A DNA stretch of 64,000 nt from Chloroflexota bacterium (GTDB taxonomy: Bacteria; Chloroflexota; Anaerolineae; Anaerolineales; Villigracilaceae), in the NCBI GenBank assembly GCA_016223135.1, contig JACRPQ010000017.1, positions 1-64,000 of the forward strand, read 5' to 3'. The notes under the pieces were generated by a model. The model did no database searches, was not told where the DNA came from, and worked only from the letters and a program-made list of their open reading frames with translations. A program made the position numbers and the translations under genes. Positions 40,936 to 49,208 of the stretch are shown here, piece by piece (positions within the stretch are counted from its first letter, which is position 1; each line of letters opens with the position of its first letter).

Positions 40936-42609
<1,674 letters not shown>

Positions 42610-42657: not shown

Positions 42658-43193
42658 TCAGAGTGCGGAAAGTTTCTTTGCGAAGACAGAAAATTCTTTT
42701 TCTTTTCCTTCAACTTTTGACCAGCGTTTGATCTCCTTCACATCCACGGGATTGTTTTGGGCAACCAACACAGCCTGCTCCAGCCCTTGCAGGTCATTCC
42801 AAAAATAGAAGGCGCACAACCTGTCTTTGACGCAATCGGTGGGGGATAGAATCTTCAGCGTTCCCGTAGACAACGTAAACTCGCTGATATCCTTCACTGG
42901 CTCTTCGCCTACTGAAAGCGGACCGTCGGGAAATTCCACAAAGAATGCCGTTTCGGGGTGGATGAAATAACGTCCCTGCTCGTGAAAGCCCAATTTCTCC
43001 ATTACCGTTTTGATTTTGCTCCGTTTGGCGAAATTGGCATTGATCAAATCCAAATCTTTTGAGACGTATTTGTCGCCGCTGTAAAAGGAAACCGCGCTGC
43101 CGCCTGAAAGAACAACATGGATTCCGTCACCTGCAAAGCGTCTTGAATATATGCCGCCAGTTCCGCCTGACTCATGTTTTTGAGGCGCTTCAT
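42658..43193 (-). pseudogene. AbiEii-like nucleotidyltransferase gene with a frameshift
   Basis: From the ATG at 43193 (overlapping the upstream stop as ATGA) the frame reads MKRLKNMSQAELAAYIQDAL and then shifts. The next frame continues GDGIHVVLSGGSAVSFYSG, then DKYVSKDLDLINANFAK and runs open to 42658. LSGGSAV and SKDLDL are the nucleotidyltransferase core (GGS...D.D). One missing G in the run TTTGCAGG (about 43145) would restore an approximately 178-aa protein. It is either a real disruption or an assembly error. Family members of this type pair with a winged-helix protein as candidate toxin-antitoxin modules, as here. Confidence 0.7.
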
Positions 43194-43519
43194 AATTCCT
43201 TGCCCCGTGACCGCGGTCTACGGCGATTCATGATCAATTCTTCCTGCTCTTTCGCAGGATAAAAAGAAAGCGCCTTTTCCAGCAGGGACTTCAACTCATT
43301 CAAAAACGGGTAGCGGGGATTGAACTGGTAGGGACGCGTCCGCCCGATTGCGCGGCTGACCAGCACGCCGCCCGCTTCGAATTTGTCCATTTGGTTTTGA
43401 ATGGACTTCAAATCCGTCTTGAAGAAACGCGCAATCTCACGTGGATATCCCTCCCCGCGCGCAAAGATATAAATCAGGACTCGTTCCGCGTTTTTTGAGC
43501 CGAGCAGAACCTCGATCAT
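43190..43519 (-). CDS. Winged-helix regulator paired with nucleotidyltransferase
   Basis: A 109-aa DNA-binding protein. A helix-turn-helix is seen in YPREIARFFKTDLKSIQNQM (25-44), followed by a wing-like stretch GVLVSRAIGRTRPYQFNPRY. It resembles ArsR-like regulators commonly encoded before AbiEii-type nucleotidyltransferases and likely autoregulates the pair. Its TGA overlaps the ATG of the next gene. The C-terminal tail is strongly basic. Confidence 0.75.
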   Translation of the reverse strand: MIEVLLGSKNAERVLIYIFARGEGYPREIARFFKTDLKSIQNQMDKFEAGGVLVSRAIGRTRPYQFNPRYPFLNELKSLLEKALSFYPAKEQEELIMNRRRPRSRGKEL

Positions 43520-43943
43520 TGGAGAACCTCACCTTAGGCGACGGTTATTGTCCGTCTTGTGACGTATACTTTCCGTCATTATATCACAAGGCAAAAAACG
43601 CTTTGTCCATGGAGTAGATAATTTATGGGGTTTTGTCGGATATGGTCAGTGGAGATTGGGGCATATTGAATTAAAGAGTGGGAAAGGATGAATGATGAAG
43701 GATGAACTTTTTGACCATCCTCGACTTCGTTCAGGGCACAAAGAGCGCGAAGAACGGGGATGATTTTTTGGGGAAGATGAAATACCCGCTTCGTTTTTAA
43801 CTGGAGGTTGGTTCGATTTCGAGGGGCGTTATGCCGTGCTGTTAGCCTGCATGGGGTGGTAGACGTAAAGAGTAATACATTTTTAATCTTGACTTACTAT
43901 TTGAATTGATGTAGTATATCAGCAATTGAAGGAGATATTTAAA
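43520..43943. other. Intergenic region between the two accessory pairs
   Basis: No gene seen. On the minus strand TATAAT at 43583-43578 is a likely -10 for the winged-helix gene. It lies within an inverted pair CTTGTGA (43555-43561) / TCACAAG (43584-43590), with further GACGG/CCGTC words, a plausible operator. CTCGACTTCGTTCAGGG at 43723 belongs to the repeat word found inside aroA. The right end holds the vapBC promoter. Confidence 0.5.
43889..43917 (+). promoter_or_regulatory. vapBC promoter and likely operator
   Basis: TTGACT (43889-43894), 17-base spacer, TAGTAT (43912-43917). TACTA (43895-43899) and TAGTA (43912-43916) form an inverted pair across the spacer, fitting autoregulation by the antitoxin-toxin complex. 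Confidence 0.7.
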
Positions 43944-44174
43944 ATGGAAACTTACGCAACCGTAAAAGGTCAAATTGTCATTCCTGCGGCGTTACGGAGA
44001 AAATACGGGATTAAGAACGGCACAAAAATCATCGTCACGGATACTGGCGATGCGATTGTTTTGAAACCTGTGACGGAACAGTATCTCAGGAGCCTGCAAG
44101 GCTCGCTCAAAGGCAAAGGCGGGCTAAAAACATTGATGAATGAACGTCAAAAAGACAAGGAAAGGGAAAAGTAA
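43944..44174 (+). CDS. vapB: AbrB/SpoVT-type antitoxin of a VapBC pair
   Basis: A 76-aa protein with a swapped-hairpin AbrB DNA-binding domain: ATVKGQIVIPAALRRKYGI (4-22), then GTKIIVTDTGDAIVLKP. The charged C-terminal tail is the usual toxin-binding region. AAGGAGA at 43929 selects ATG 43944; an upstream in-frame start at 43926 has no ribosome binding site. Two bases separate it from vapC. Confidence 0.88.
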   Translation: METYATVKGQIVIPAALRRKYGIKNGTKIIVTDTGDAIVLKPVTEQYLRSLQGSLKGKGGLKTLMNERQKDKEREK

Positions 44175-44176
44175 AC

Positions 44177-44575
44177 ATGGCAGCCAAAGTCCTTGACTCG
44201 TATGCCTTGCTGGCTTTCTTTGAAGACGAGCCAGGCGCGGACTTCGTGAGGGGGCTGATTCACAAAGCCGTGGAAGGTGATGTAACCTTGCTGATGACCG
44301 TCGTCAATTTGGGGGAGGTTTGGTATGCCATTGCCCGCAATACCTCCCCTGAAATTGCAGATCAGTACATTCATGAAATCAAGGGCATGGGCATTGAAAT
44401 TGTGGAAGCGGATTGGAATTTGACCCGTCAAGCCGCTGTGTTCAAGGCGAATGGGAATATTTCATACGCCGATTGTTTTGCGGCGGCATTGGCGAAGTTG
44501 AAGAAGGCGGAGTTGGTGACAGGGGATAAGGAATTCAAGCCGCTGGAAGGCGAGATTAAGATTGTGTGGGTATAA
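44177..44575 (+). CDS. vapC: PIN-domain ribonuclease toxin
   Basis: A 132-aa PIN protein. Acidic residues fall where metal ligands are expected: Asp7 in KVLDSYALLAFF, Glu near 47 in VVNLGEVWYA, and Asp near 98 and 116 in SYADCFAAALA and LVTGDKEF. VapC toxins cleave tRNA or rRNA when freed from VapB. It follows the antitoxin gene by two bases and ends in a region without genes before the HerA operon. Confidence 0.88.
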   Translation: MAAKVLDSYALLAFFEDEPGADFVRGLIHKAVEGDVTLLMTVVNLGEVWYAIARNTSPEIADQYIHEIKGMGIEIVEADWNLTRQAAVFKANGNISYADCFAAALAKLKKAELVTGDKEFKPLEGEIKIVWV

Positions 44576-44692: not shown

Positions 44693-46468
44693 TTAGAGCA
44701 TTTTTCCTTGTGTTATCAAACCGTTTGATTTGATAAACTCATCTACGCTACTAAAAGCGTTGAGAAACAAAGGGGTCCCTGCAAACGAGAGCGGCGAAAC
44801 GGGTCCAATGGTCATAAAGGAATACTCTCGGCTGGTTATGTCGAAAGATGAATGTGGGTCGCGGAACTGTTGATAGAGTTTCAAATATTCTCCTTTGCCT
44901 CCTACCAACTCCTGCAATTTTCTGAACTCCGTTCCCATGCTCAAGCCAAAACCAAAGAACGAAATACGCAATTGCTGGACAATTTCGTTATCCAGACTTG
45001 ACAGAGTTTGACTTAAGAACATCCACCCCAAGCCATATTTGCGCGTAGTGCGAACAGCGTCTACTAAATTGCGCTTGATACGCTGCTTGCGCTCGTTATT
45101 GTCGCGTTCTTGCGGCGCGAAACGATGGGCTTCGTCCAATACAACAAGAGTATTGAGGCTTTTTTCTCCCTGATAGGCGTCTTCAGCCTCTCGGATTAGA
45201 ACGCCCAAGAAAGCGTCTATCAGGAGTGGTTTAATTTTTTCATCCCACACCCCTGTTGAAATTCCACTTGGTCGTTTGGAAAGGTCAACTACAATGACAG
45301 GGCGGCTATTGTTGTTGAAAGTGGTTAGAGCCTTCTTGACAATTGCCTCGATTGAACTTTTACCGCCTGTTTCGGCGAAGAATTTTGCGACATTATGCCA
45401 TTTCTCTTTAACAGCTACATACTGACCGTCCCTCGATTTTTGAATTGTCTCTTGGATAAATCCTTGTACTCGTTCAATTCCCGCTCCACCGCTGTAAATG
45501 CGATGAACGTTTTGGTGCAAGTGAGACAATGCCGAAAGTAGCGCCTCATCATCAATCGCTGATAATTTATGTTTTCTGCTCTCGCGAAAATAGTCGGTTA
45601 AGTACGCGGCAGCAATATTTTGGTAATCAGCCGCTTTGATACCTAAATCAAAAAAGAATCCAAATTCAGTTAGCAATTCGGTGAATAGCTCCCACGAGTC
45701 CAACCTAAACTTGTCCAAGTTGTAAACTTCGACAGTTCTACCTATTCCTTTAATTAATGCAGAGTGCAAAATTCGTCCCATCGTAGGAGTGGGCTGAGTA
45801 CTTTGCAAATCGAGGGAGAATTCCCCTTGTGGATCTAGAACAAACAATCCCATCTTTTTATGGCGCATATAAGCCAGCAGAATCATCTTCGCCAACACAG
45901 ATTTACCAGAGCCAGTTTTGCCAAAGATACCAAGATGATAGGCTTCCCCTGCTCCGTCTTGACCGCTATCAAAATGTTTGAACCATAGCGGCAATTTTGG
46001 CTTGGAGCCGTACACATGACCAAGATAGAACAACTGTGATTGATAGGGCGAGAGTAATTCTTTCAGAATGTCATCGTCGGCAAGATAAATTGGCGTGCCA
46101 GTAGCAGGGACAGTACCGAGAATGCTGGGATGATAGTTGCCGTTCTCGTTAGCAAACACCGCGCTGATTATCATCTGCCCCTGATGTGTATCCTGTCGTT
46201 CGCTAATGGAATCAACTCGCCCGCGTTGACGAATCAGGCTTCGCATGGTTGGGTCTTCATGCCAGATGTTACGCAGGGTAATTTCGGTAATTTGACCCAG
46301 CGCGTAATTTGTGTAAGCCTCCTGGCTATATGGGAAAAAGGCTAATTCACCAACCAGTTTTTTGTTCACTGCGCTTGCCATAATGTCGAGTGCAAGTTCG
46401 TTAGTTGAGGAGGGAGACCCAATCACGCCGATTCGCTCGGCTTTGGCGACAAGTTGCTCCAGTGCCAT
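44693..46468 (-). CDS. herA: HerA-like DNA translocase ATPase
   Basis: A 591-aa FtsK/HerA-superfamily ATPase. The N-terminal HAS-like barrel covers about 1-150; Walker A IFGKTGSGKSVLAK is at 181-194, an internal FVLDPQGEFS at about 210-220, Walker B VVLDEAHRFAP near 444-454, and an arginine-finger candidate in DAVRTTRKYG. It is expected to form a hexameric ring pumping or unwinding DNA together with NurA. It is the last gene of the four-gene operon, three bases after nurA. Codon use is AT-richer than in the flanking housekeeping genes, suggesting transfer. Confidence 0.9.
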   Translation of the reverse strand: MALEQLVAKAERIGVIGSPSSTNELALDIMASAVNKKLVGELAFFPYSQEAYTNYALGQITEITLRNIWHEDPTMRSLIRQRGRVDSISERQDTHQGQMIISAVFANENGNYHPSILGTVPATGTPIYLADDDILKELLSPYQSQLFYLGHVYGSKPKLPLWFKHFDSGQDGAGEAYHLGIFGKTGSGKSVLAKMILLAYMRHKKMGLFVLDPQGEFSLDLQSTQPTPTMGRILHSALIKGIGRTVEVYNLDKFRLDSWELFTELLTEFGFFFDLGIKAADYQNIAAAYLTDYFRESRKHKLSAIDDEALLSALSHLHQNVHRIYSGGAGIERVQGFIQETIQKSRDGQYVAVKEKWHNVAKFFAETGGKSSIEAIVKKALTTFNNNSRPVIVVDLSKRPSGISTGVWDEKIKPLLIDAFLGVLIREAEDAYQGEKSLNTLVVLDEAHRFAPQERDNNERKQRIKRNLVDAVRTTRKYGLGWMFLSQTLSSLDNEIVQQLRISFFGFGLSMGTEFRKLQELVGGKGEYLKLYQQFRDPHSSFDITSREYSFMTIGPVSPLSFAGTPLFLNAFSSVDEFIKSNGLITQGKML

Positions 46469-46471
46469 GTC

Positions 46472-47620
46472 TTATGCTCCTGTTTCTGTACGATATCCAT
46501 GCAGACTCATGAAAACTTCGCCAATATCGCCATCGTAGTTTTCGGCCAAGTTTTGGCTGGCAATTTGACGAAAAACGGGAATAGAACGCGCCAGATGTTT
46601 TACCATGCGGTCAGCCATATAAAGCGGGAACGGTTCCATGATGGCAGTTGCCTGGCATTGATGTTCAATACCTTTGAGAACAATGCTCAGACGGGATGGG
46701 TTGTCTGCAATTGATTGTGCCAATTCCAGCCGCAACGCTGGCCACCACTGGACAGGACGATAGTAGATAACTTTAACCCCATTTAAAAGTTTAATGATTT
46801 CATCTACCACCTTTTTTGCTTGTTCCTTGTTTTCCTTGAGGGCAGAAATGTTGATATGCCATGGGGTTTCAGGAGCAGTTAAAGGCATAGGATGGGTATA
46901 TTCGCCAGGCTCCATGACAAGACTCAAGATTCCCCGGTCTTCATAGGCGCTATGCCAACCAGCCAATTCGCCAATCTCGCGTCTGGTTGTATACTTTGGC
47001 ATTGCTACCCAAAAATGATCGGAACGTGTGGATTGTAAAATTGTACGATAAGACTCTAAATAAGCAAGGGCGGTCTCGAGTAAATATTTGCTAACGCGTA
47101 AATAAGGCGCTTCGGCTATTTTGCTTAACGCCTGGTTAAAAAAGATAGTCGGTGTAGTTAGGGAGCCGTCCAAAAAGACCACCTCATGAGGAGCGTCTTT
47201 TGCAAGTTGCATTTCATTGCCCGCCATAATACCTTGTAATACTGAGCCAGTATCGGCATGATGGATTTCTGTATTGACATAAACTAAATGACGTGGCTCA
47301 GGCCAATAACGCGCCTCGGATGGTGGTGTCAAGCCCTCGACGGCCACTGCGCCAACTGCCACTAAATCTAACGCAAGTAGACGTTCAATCGCCATGCTTC
47401 CATCTACGCCGCATGTTGTAGGAGCGTTGACAAAAGGGAGGGCAATTTGCTTGTGGATTAAATTTTTTTGGAATAGTTCGCTTCGCCAAGTTTCTTTCTT
47501 GGTTTTTAAATCACCAAAAGCGGAAAGCAATCTCTGGCTAACATCTTTCGTTTGTATTAGCACTTCATCTACCAGCGCGGCAGGCAATTCGGCAAAGGGT
47601 GTATTATTTACTTCGGGCAT
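46472..47620 (-). CDS. nurA: NurA-domain nuclease
   Basis: A 382-aa protein with NurA landmarks: GVDGSMAIERL (71-81) with the metal-binding Asp73, VVFLDGSL near 148-155 with a second acidic site, and a C-terminal YYRPVQWWPALRLELAQS block typical of the family. NurA is an RNase H-like 5'-3' exonuclease/endonuclease that works with HerA in DNA-end processing. It lies directly upstream of herA, with start eight bases after the small ORF. In bacteria HerA paired with a nuclease is often part of phage-defence operons, which fits its neighbours. Confidence 0.88.
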   Translation of the reverse strand: MPEVNNTPFAELPAALVDEVLIQTKDVSQRLLSAFGDLKTKKETWRSELFQKNLIHKQIALPFVNAPTTCGVDGSMAIERLLALDLVAVGAVAVEGLTPPSEARYWPEPRHLVYVNTEIHHADTGSVLQGIMAGNEMQLAKDAPHEVVFLDGSLTTPTIFFNQALSKIAEAPYLRVSKYLLETALAYLESYRTILQSTRSDHFWVAMPKYTTRREIGELAGWHSAYEDRGILSLVMEPGEYTHPMPLTAPETPWHINISALKENKEQAKKVVDEIIKLLNGVKVIYYRPVQWWPALRLELAQSIADNPSRLSIVLKGIEHQCQATAIMEPFPLYMADRMVKHLARSIPVFRQIASQNLAENYDGDIGEVFMSLHGYRTETGA

Positions 47621-47628
47621 AGTCAGTT

Positions 47629-47793
47629 TTAATTAAAGGTCATGAAATCTTTGAGAATTTCTTTTTTATTCCAAGAGCACCAACCGTTTACACTATTCAA
47701 AACGCGATAAATGGTAACGTTTTCTCCGATATGCAATGCAAGCAAATCCGCCAACGGTAAATTTTTGGAAAATGATTGAACGAGAAACATCAT
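47629..47793 (-). CDS. 54-aa protein between druA-like and nurA
   Basis: A small frame that starts with ATG overlapping the DUF4338 stop (AAAATGATG), begins MMFLVQSFSKNLPLADLLAL and ends in TAA at 47629, eight bases before the nurA ATG. Middle residues include HIGENVTIYRVLNS; the C-terminal part has SWNKKEILKDF. No family was recognised, but the overlap and the short spacers on both sides indicate a genuine operon member. It could be a small regulatory or adaptor subunit. Confidence 0.65.
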   Translation of the reverse strand: MMFLVQSFSKNLPLADLLALHIGENVTIYRVLNSVNGWCSWNKKEILKDFMTFN

Positions 47794-48704
47794 TTTTGTT
47801 CTGTTTCACCTTCAGGAGATAAAACTTTTATCAACTTTAAACGAGTTTCCTTATTTAATCCATAAAGATATATTTTCTTGGGTTCTTGGCTATTTCGATA
47901 TGACATTCCACTTTTTGCATAGCCTTTTGTTATGCCTATTTCTAGCCAGTTTGCTGCTTTATAACTTGTTCCTAAATATCTTGATGGTTGCACAAAGGTC
48001 TCTGCAATTAATGGAGTAATTGAATAATACCAAGCCCAATCGGAAACAACCTTCTCTGTTGACAGGGAAAGAATTTTTGAAGCAAGATTTTTCACTTTCA
48101 CTGTCGGCAAAATCAAAAATCGGCTGTTGTTGATTACCTTATTCAAGATGTCTTCGCGCGTAAAGCCCAATTTTTGGAGAATCTGATTTCTTGGACTGAG
48201 ATTCCAAGCAGGTGAGGAATAGGCAATAGCACCCAAAATGATATTCTCAGAAACGATTAGATATTTGAGAGTACGTCCAACTGTAACCTTGTGACCCAAA
48301 TAGTGGTATTGCTCGACTAGGTAATTCCAAATTTGTTCCTCTTTGTTACTCTTTGCTAAAACAAAATCAATTAAGTTGGGAATTTGAGTTACTTCATTTG
48401 GAATGATATATTTTTCAAGTTTAGGTATTGGGGCATTGTTTTCTTTTTTAGTTTTCCTTGTTACTTTTGGTTCAGGTAGTTTGATCACTCCCCTTTTCTC
48501 CAGTTGTATTAAAACATCACGGCAAGCCCTATCTTTTAGCCAGCCATTTGGTTGTCTCCAGTTTAGCCTTTTACAAACTTCTTTTGAAATTCGAGTTCTT
48601 CCGAACTTATAGTATCTCTTTACACATGATTTGACCACACCTATTGAAGATGCTGTGAATTTTCTCCCTCGCAGCGTAATCGGTGTAGTAATCTTTGGCT
48701 TCAT
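47790..48704 (-). CDS. DUF4338 protein, DruA-like
   Basis: A 304-aa protein matching the DUF4338/DruA pattern throughout: SKEVCKRLNWRQPNGWLKD, RACRDVLIQLEKRGVIKLP, YHYLGHKVTVGRTLKYLIV, ILGAIAYSSPAWNLSPRNQ, NNSRFLILPTVKVKNLASKI, DWAWYYSITPLIAETFV, then YLGTSYKAANWLEIGITKGY. DruA is a core protein of Druantia type I defence; DUF4338 proteins also spread as stand-alone, transposase-like genes. The ATG at 48704 follows a TATAAT at 48725-48720; a TTG ten codons upstream would overlap that -10. None of the other Druantia genes (DruB-E) is present; NurA and HerA follow instead. Confidence 0.85.
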   Translation of the reverse strand: MKPKITTPITLRGRKFTASSIGVVKSCVKRYYKFGRTRISKEVCKRLNWRQPNGWLKDRACRDVLIQLEKRGVIKLPEPKVTRKTKKENNAPIPKLEKYIIPNEVTQIPNLIDFVLAKSNKEEQIWNYLVEQYHYLGHKVTVGRTLKYLIVSENIILGAIAYSSPAWNLSPRNQILQKLGFTREDILNKVINNSRFLILPTVKVKNLASKILSLSTEKVVSDWAWYYSITPLIAETFVQPSRYLGTSYKAANWLEIGITKGYAKSGMSYRNSQEPKKIYLYGLNKETRLKLIKVLSPEGETEQK

Positions 48705-48725: not shown

Positions 48726-48998
48726 CCCGCGCAATCTGTCAATCCAACAAGAAAAGAAAGACTCTCTAGAATTTGCCGGGTTTCATCCATTATTTAGGCA
48801 TGAAAAACCTTTATTAGGCGAAAAGCATCCTCATATGGGGAGGCACCACGACAACAGGTAAAAACCAAGAAACAAGAAAAAAGAAACCAACCCTGCAAGT
48901 GGAAATAGGTGAACACCGCCTCTCTTGAGCGCTTTATTCTTCTACAAATGCTCGGTCAATCGCGGTTCTATGGAACCCCCATCAGGTCTCCGCGAAAC

Positions 48999-49208
48999 TT
49001 ACCCAATCCTCCCTTTCAACTCTTGCGGGTCCAAATACATTTCCACATACCCGCAGTTGGGACAGGCGCGCGCCAGCGTAATTTTGGTGACCACCCTGAG
49101 CATCCCCGTCTGCTTTTTGGATACGTACCCAGACTGTCCGCTTCCAGACCAACTCATGTAGCCTTCGTCCATTGACGTATTGCACTTGGGGCAGGGGTGT
49201 GTTTTCAT
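48999..49208 (-). CDS. Small zinc-ribbon protein
   Basis: A 69-aa protein with two zinc knuckles, CPKC (6-9) and CPNC (near 49-52), separated by a beta-rich stretch with SGQSGYVSKK. It has the form of a stand-alone zinc ribbon often annotated as a nucleic-acid-binding protein. GGAGAATGAC before the ATG is a good ribosome binding site. Function unknown. Confidence 0.7.
   Translation of the reverse strand: MKTHPCPKCNTSMDEGYMSWSGSGQSGYVSKKQTGMLRVVTKITLARACPNCGYVEMYLDPQELKGRIG

Follow-up and report, generated by a model that had tools for sequence, protein, structure and literature searches.

A DruA-NurA-HerA gene cassette of Chloroflexota with a probable exchange of druA as a candidate anti-invader system

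The 64,000-nucleotide stretch analysed here (the window; positions 1 to 64,000 of contig JACRPQ010000017.1 of a Chloroflexota bacterium) encodes on its minus strand a protein of the DruA family (DUF4338), followed by a NurA-family nuclease and a HerA-type ATPase. Comparison of this locus with related genomes very probably reveals a conserved DruA-NurA-HerA cassette, in which the window copy has had its druA swapped and has kept a scar of the old gene. Beyond this, the cassette is proposed to be a horizontally moving, three-gene anti-invader system of Chloroflexota, in which DruA would mark DNA and HerA-NurA would destroy unmarked DNA, a statement that as a whole is given slightly better than even odds (about 0.53). 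If correct, it would define a three-gene anti-phage system and give the orphan DruA family a nuclease pump as its partner. The part of the literature that was searched yielded no account of the DruA-NurA-HerA arrangement and no paper naming both Druantia and NurA.

Gene order and distribution of the cassette

NurA, searched against named genomes with close-relative patterns, yielded four relatives of the window locus (L002, L003, L004, and L005), and the searches as a whole covered genomes of the window's class and phylum, plasmids, viral contigs, and phage records. The sister copy L002, a metagenome-assembled genome (MAG) named Anaerolinea sp. that is apparently the same record as G130, listed in the genus of the window genome, has the gene arrangement of the window. 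In the other three relatives a DruA of 361-381 amino acids is encoded directly upstream of nurA (Pfam DruA E 3.5e-79, 3.1e-78, and 4e-64), and these long DruAs of L003 and L004 cover nearly the whole PADLOC DruA1 model (E 1e-99 and 1e-100). Within the class, window-type NurA is present in 24 of 396 genomes, and a DruA-family gene lies immediately upstream of nurA in all 23 that could be assessed, the DruA being long in 21 and short in two (the window and G130). The 21 long genes comprise 20 in retrieved loci and that of G364, whose druA is located, together with the beginning of nurA, on a separate contig; G375 could not be assessed because its contig starts inside nurA, and a second NurA piece of G278, at a contig end, was excluded from the count. 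HerA follows NurA wherever the sequence extends far enough. The preliminary description of this DNA had grouped the DruA-family gene with NurA-HerA in one candidate operon and had regarded occurrence in the window only as grounds for abandoning the idea; the search for homologues shows the arrangement to be conserved and not confined to the window.

Approached from DruA, the family model PF14236 is matched in 18 of 301 genomes of the phylum. NurA-HerA adjoin DruA in 10 of these (G000, G130, G010, G410, G425, G457, G491, G499, G526, in which NurA is split over two frames, and G605), another type of pair, with NurA-like and HerA-like members, in one (G528), a DruE-like helicase in two (G498 and G628), and a HerA-like gene lies upstream of DruA in one (G148); the DruA neighbours in the other four (G409, G472, which is at a contig end, G654, and G658) are without assignment. 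One copy of the cassette is decayed (L005:6932-9551), with an internal deletion in DruA and NurA and HerA fused by deletion, although an assembly fault is possible in this MAG.

The window NurA falls just below the 21-bit cut-off of Pfam NurA (E 9e-4, 19.2 bits), a model matched by 19 of the 20 members of its family (best E 1.2e-9), and D73 and D151 are invariant in the 20-row alignment. The HerA profile matches HerA chains of the PDB, e.g., 8xau (E 2.8e-9), some of which we take to be defence HerAs, and the PADLOC HerA models match the window ATPase. A PDB sequence search with the NurA profile gave no match.

The cassette occurs at a chromosomal position of changing content. Its place in the window, G130, and G362 is upstream of an ABC-F gene. 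The genome G271 belongs to the same genus; there, the segment between the ABC-F gene and a homologue of the window open reading frame (ORF) at 48999-49208 encodes TIR, NACHT-like/TPR, and radical SAM proteins (module L135:1477-7825; NACHT match 26.2 bits, cut-off 26.7), and G148 has HerA and DruA upstream of the same ABC-F gene. In four further genomes (G345, G089, G027, and G164), some 12 kb at the slot gave no match to the cassette proteins. The slot thus looks like a variable, defence-like spot, in keeping with the defence-island-like setting suggested in the preliminary description. At L097:7879-10687, also upstream of this ABC-F gene, a HerA-like gene is followed by a divergent DruA, with no NurA match, which is perhaps a third DruA-HerA arrangement.

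DruA-NurA-HerA is also encoded on three IMG/VR contigs, two of them with clear phage genes beside it: in one (L114/L118) the cassette follows a phage-type integrase and precedes phage replication genes, and in another (L120) it adjoins tail and head genes, while in L113 the contig ends within druA, and the single neighbouring gene tested was without a PHROG match. In phage records neither window-type NurA nor long DruA was found, and short DruA was found in neither viral contigs nor phage records. Among plasmids, the NurA search led to two only, one of Rhizobium and one haloarchaeal, each encoding a distant NurA-HerA pair with no DruA match within 6 kb on each side. Because the cassette is found in 24 of 396 class genomes, because its slot can hold a TIR/NACHT-like module instead, and because viral contigs carry it, it would appear to be accessory. 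A haloarchaeal plasmid (L111:3666-10711) encodes, in a row, a large DUF4338 protein, two hypothetical proteins, and an annotated DNA translocase FtsK, apparently another DruA-translocase pairing.

With Druantia type I the cassette has its DruA in common: the usual cassette DruA is a homologue of DruA1 over nearly the full model, the L003 protein is 31-35% identical to five DruAs adjoining DruE-like genes, and the window protein matches Pfam DruA. The cassette differs in that its partners are NurA and HerA, in that its DruAs fall, with some solitary DruAs, into two clades apart from the DruAs beside DruE, and in that the window DruA has no PADLOC DruA match. The DruE helicase occurs in all three Druantia types, according to a portion of PMC13316683. 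Three DruE queries in tblastn gave no match in the window and 32 cassette loci, many of them short contigs, and matched four of four controls. Five tblastn queries for DruB, DruC, and DruD, which we named from gene order, likewise found none in these loci; one DruB and one DruC query matched two controls (L116 and L119, viral contigs with Druantia type I genes), DruD matched none, and the remaining queries matched no control. Druantia was rejected for the cassette on the lack of DruE by tblastn, and the earlier observation that no Druantia partners accompany DruA holds for DruE and, more tentatively, for DruB and DruC.

Other known systems resemble the cassette in part. HerA-SIR2 and HerA-DUF4297 also combine a HerA-type ATPase with a nuclease; here, however, the nuclease is of the NurA family and has a DruA-family gene alongside (23 of 23 assessable genomes), and a Pfam scan of the four window ORFs found no SIR2 or DUF4297 domain. 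The archaeal and Deinococcus HerA-NurA pairs have the same families in the same two-gene nurA-herA order but are distant in sequence, whereas the cassette pair is coupled to DruA; a passage of PMC12977600 suggests that HerA-NurA may act by degrading viral double-stranded DNA. BREX-Related Capture (BRC), as described in PMC12839542, has a HerA/FtsK translocase that one of the proposed systems combines with a GNAT that may modify DNA, but it contains PglZ, DUF6079, STAND NTPase, DUF4007, and TGT, and the names NurA and DruA are absent from that text.

Exchange of druA between cassettes

Between the short druA of the window and nurA lies a 54-amino-acid ORF. All four minus-strand ORFs, the ATGA overlap, and the gaps of 8 and 3 bases are placed as the preliminary description had them; its four-gene operon was rejected, however, because the small ORF is no component in its own right but a 3' remnant of a long druA. 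Residues 10-54 align with residues 331-373 of the L003 DruA at 44% identity (E 4e-6), and the ORF matches the hidden Markov model (HMM) of long DruA (E 3.4e-5). Since the ORF matches the 3' end of long druA, a long druA was in all likelihood replaced in place with its 3' end left behind; the incoming short druA would belong with the druA genes of a second cassette type described below, and 45 codons of the old gene would persist in the 54-amino-acid ORF. The corresponding stretch of L002 aligns only with gaps and has no long-DruA match, and no convincing N-terminal remnant of long druA was found. A stretch of about 40 bases upstream of the short druA, which is common with the region upstream of the L005 long druA (Table 1), possibly represents the upstream border of the exchanged segment. 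The assignment of the first gene to the DruA family therefore stands, but it is not the DruA usual for the cassette: it appears to be a swapped-in member of another subfamily, with its nearest relatives in the second cassette type.

The nearest long-DruA cassette, L035 (the same record as L003), is 90% identical to the window in NurA and 94% in HerA, but 19% in DruA. The new short druA is intact in the window and in the sister genome and is, judged from codon comparison, under purifying selection: the ratio of nonsynonymous to synonymous substitution rates (dN/dS) between the two copies is 0.115, compared with 0.048 for NurA and 0.045 for HerA.

A second exchange is apparent between L042 and L100, which are 78% identical in NurA and 75% in HerA but 34% in DruA. 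The two are sisters in both the NurA and the HerA tree (100/100, 99/100), and their DruAs sit in different, well-supported clades. Across 21 cassettes, a set that omits the window and L034, the Spearman correlation of distances was 0.89 for NurA-HerA, 0.71 for DruA-NurA, and 0.62 for DruA-HerA; among 999 permutations, which ignored host relatedness, the observed rho was reached by 0, 0, and 1, respectively. NurA and HerA would thus travel together while DruA is exchanged between cassettes. If the proposed system is real, two interchanging DruA types beside almost identical NurA-HerA pairs would constitute a natural swap experiment that makes the role of DruA testable.

The possible activity of DruA and the rival explanations

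In known HerA-NurA pairs, a hexameric ring of HerA sits on a dimer of NurA and feeds it double-stranded DNA for cutting. The cassette HerA and NurA would act in the same manner, and DruA, as a GNAT or Mom-like enzyme, would supply the discrimination between self and non-self by placing a mark, most likely of acyl type, on DNA bases, thereby sparing the cell's own DNA. Three lines of evidence suggest such a modification role for DruA: related gene pairs in which a DNA methylase takes the place of DruA, Mom of phage Mu as the top structural match of the long DruA, and solitary DruA genes on viral contigs. More tentatively, and with the balance somewhat against it, the cassette may represent a new class of restriction-modification, with a Mom-kind acyl mark made by DruA, a processive HerA-NurA pump-nuclease that destroys unmarked DNA, and a mark that changes when whole DruAs are swapped, an event of which the scar in the window would be a record. 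Such a reading would suggest that DruA in general, including the one of Druantia type I, has an enzymatic role.

The first line of evidence comes from the second cassette type. In G171 a relative of the window DruA (L061/L071; 54% identity) precedes a 355-amino-acid gene, here NurA2, and a HerA-like gene. The ATPase is related to HerA (hhalign 95%, E 2.6e-8). NurA2 is putatively NurA-like, a label based on its position ahead of a relative of HerA and on a DGT/DGS motif noted by eye; its comparison with the NurA profile was not significant, six NurA2-type proteins had no Pfam NurA match, PDB sequence searches with the DruA and NurA2 profiles gave nothing useful, and plasmids contained no NurA2. 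NurA2 matches occur in five of 350 phylum genomes. G528 (E 2e-244) has a short DruA with it, and the matches in the other four are weaker (E 1e-13 to 3e-8). In G073 and G298 a search of the large gene upstream of the NurA2 relative gave the Eco57I methylase model at E 3e-9 and 4e-12, respectively, so that a DNA methylase, which we read as being of the adenine-N6 class, would fill the DruA slot in two relatives. These three-gene sets of Eco57I-type DNA methylase, NurA-like, and HerA-like genes (L142:2-5298 and L143:277-6358, in two Chloroflexota genomes) are perhaps a restriction-like system of their own. In G461 the NurA2-type locus is followed by a HATPase protein.

The second line concerns the fold. 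The model of the L003 long DruA (predicted local distance difference test score, pLDDT, 83; predicted template modelling score, pTM, 0.81) matches GNAT acetyltransferases. The VIA-align 2 comparison, covering 997 chains, places Mom of phage Mu at the top (8bv8; Z 9.8, 183 residues, root-mean-square deviation 5.0), and the other rows shown are nearly all acetyltransferases. The short DruAs have the motifs NLAS and GT[SC]YxAANW (NLAS ... GTSYKAANW in the window copy), whose counterparts in Mom are NSES and GVVYQASNF, giving a common NxxS + GxxYxAxN[WF] pattern in an alignment made by eye with the help of a non-significant hhalign. As to the catalytic residues of Mom, the title of 8bv8 reads 'inactive mutant S124A'. 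A PHROG family named 'Mom-like' matches the window DruA (E 7e-6), and Foldseek against viral models returned giant-virus and phage proteins with uninformative names. Portions of two papers describe DUF4338 as a GNAT domain (PMC10853773) and Mom as a GNAT-superfamily enzyme that acylates adenine and is typically fused to endonuclease domains in jumbo phages (PMC7824862). The cassette differs from such Mom-endonuclease proteins in having NurA as nuclease and HerA as its pump in place of a restriction endonuclease fold fused to the enzyme, and from Mom in that the sequence profiles of Mom and DruA are not significantly related.

The third line is the occurrence of DruA without NurA-HerA, in the stretch examined, on three viral contigs: L115, L117 (at a contig end), and L121, in which the DruA is shortened and a terminase gene lies nearby. 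A solitary viral DruA possibly serves in phage counter-defence or DNA modification, and if the proposed mechanism is true, such genes on phages would be suggested to be protective or counter-defence enzymes.

Several results weigh against a DNA-marking DruA in a defence cassette. The lead of Mom over other GNATs in VIA-align is less than 1 Z, and plain Foldseek ranks other GNATs first for the long DruA; the model of the window DruA failed (pLDDT 41). The hhalign comparisons of short and long DruA with Mu Mom were not significant (prob 0.5 and 0.1), the window protein was not listed for Pfam Mom (PF25680) at E 0.1, and L061 matched that model below the 27.1-bit cut-off (E 1.2e-4, 22.2 bits). 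In our reading of the alignment, the Ser of the Mom NxxS motif is aligned with Gly in the long DruAs, so that long and short DruA may not share their chemistry. The methylase parallel involves two genomes and a nuclease without profile kinship to NurA. Finally, the flanks of the 21 cassettes contained only a few defence matches, which are suggestive but not strong: for 136 flanking ORFs, chosen by a crude longest-ORF rule, the matches listed (the best 25 of 54 matched families, several of which may be the same ORF) included one each to a CBASS cyclase, PDC-S01, a type IIG enzyme, DrmMI, and a GajA-like ATPase, along with a few P-loop matches.

The explanation that competes most closely, though clearly the less likely one, is that DruA is an activator or effector, i.e., a GNAT whose acylation of a protein, or whose sensing of phage DNA, triggers HerA-NurA or kills the cell (abortive infection). 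The fold agrees with any GNAT acyltransferase, and many of these enzymes have proteins as substrates. The long DruAs, moreover, are of the same type as DruA of Druantia type I, which is not known to have a modification role or a tested enzymatic one. A passage of PMC10853773 also names GNAT among the domains fused to DndF, as possibly suicidal on proteins. The related pairs that have a DNA methylase where DruA would be speak for marking instead, the solitary DruA of phage contigs fits modification or counter-defence better than activation, and Mom ranks first in the VIA comparison, even if narrowly.

It is improbable that the genes form a DNA-repair operon of the HerA-NurA end-resection type, with DruA as an accessory and defence incidental. 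HerA-NurA has been studied as an end-resection pair, as sections of PMC5715905, PMC4351679, and PMC9960219 attest, and after one NurA2-HerA2 pair (L145; NurA2-type locus in G618) come genes for a calcineurin-like phosphoesterase and for an SbcC/Rad50-like protein. A repair role is at odds, however, with the small fraction of class genomes that have the cassette, the variable slot, the exchange of DruA, the presence on phage contigs, and the decay of the L005 copy.

Short DruA relatives and the window locus

Relatives of the short DruA were found in 10 of 298 class genomes, at 12 places. When the window, G130, and the G171 cassette are set aside, eight of the nine remaining loci have the short DruA fused to or beside a transposase, of ISAs1 type (L062 and L067), IS4/Tn5 type (L063, L064, and L070), ISAzo13 (L069), or IS66 (L065 and L066), those of L066 and L070 being identified by tblastn. 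L068 (G199) contains a short-DruA relative (E 4.5e-4) with internal stops and no match to the four transposase types searched. In these loci the DUF4338 protein, which is either fused to the transposase or encoded immediately upstream of it, may serve transposons, perhaps by marking transposon DNA. Queries for IS66, IS4, ISAs1, and ISAzo13 transposases found no homologue in the whole window. In a 14-row tree the window and L002 DruAs fall together with those of the G171 and G528 cassettes (support 100/99), apart from the transposase-linked copies; the row label L106_IS66 in this tree was a guess not borne out by the transposase search. Least probable of all is that the window gene came as a hitchhiker from a mobile element, disrupting the old druA and leaving an operon of NurA-HerA only: the old druA is indeed destroyed and most short relatives keep company with transposases, but the window DruA belongs with the cassette DruAs, no homologue of the four transposase types was found in the window, and the short druA is intact in two genomes under a dN/dS of 0.115. 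The preliminary description had also considered a freely moving element inside the operon; this holds by half, since DruA is exchangeable, but the four transposase queries found no homologue and its nearest kin are cassette genes, as opposed to transposase-linked ones. A multi-copy mobile element was rejected likewise, with one PF14236 match in the genome and a shared leader that occurs once, the 20-base core of the stretch at 48951-48989 having a single occurrence even when up to 2 mismatches are allowed.

The features of the locus are collected in Table 1; the ABC-F gene is presumably EttA-like.

Table 1. Positions in the window of the cassette genes, the leftover of the old druA, and neighbouring features
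Feature	Position	Strand	Characteristics
HerA/FtsK-type ATPase, 591 amino acids	44693-46468	minus	Walker A GKTGSGKS, Walker B VVLDEA; Pfam DUF87/HerA E 2.9e-14
NurA-family nuclease, 382 amino acids	46472-47620	minus	two DG-type acidic motifs (D73, D151); Pfam NurA
54-amino-acid ORF	47629-47793	minus	residues 10-54 (about 47632-47766) a probable leftover C-terminal end of long druA
Short DUF4338/DruA protein, 304 amino acids, probably swapped in	47790-48704	minus	Pfam DruA PF14236 E 4.3e-32
MazE-like antitoxin and PIN toxin (VapBC-type), neighbour, not a component	43926-44575	plus	Pfam
ABC-F gene bordering the variable slot, neighbour	40936-42609	minus	upstream stretch varies among sister genomes
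Upstream stretch of about 40 bases	48951-48989		common with region upstream of L005 long druA, 82.5%, blastn E 2e-4

The GC content in 1-kb windows is 0.36-0.48 in the block, 0.46-0.50 in the toxin-antitoxin stretch, and mostly 0.50-0.63 beyond, confirming that the block is AT-richer than its surroundings. The toxin-antitoxin-like neighbours reported previously were also recovered, as the MazE/PIN genes, a pair that lies beside the cassette in the sister genome as well (L034), and as a helix-turn-helix ORF with a PADLOC match (PDC-M05A, E 7e-10). In the latter (window 42658-43519) the helix-turn-helix ORF is followed by ORFs of 49 and 131 amino acids that overlap slightly in different frames and are perhaps one frameshifted partner gene.

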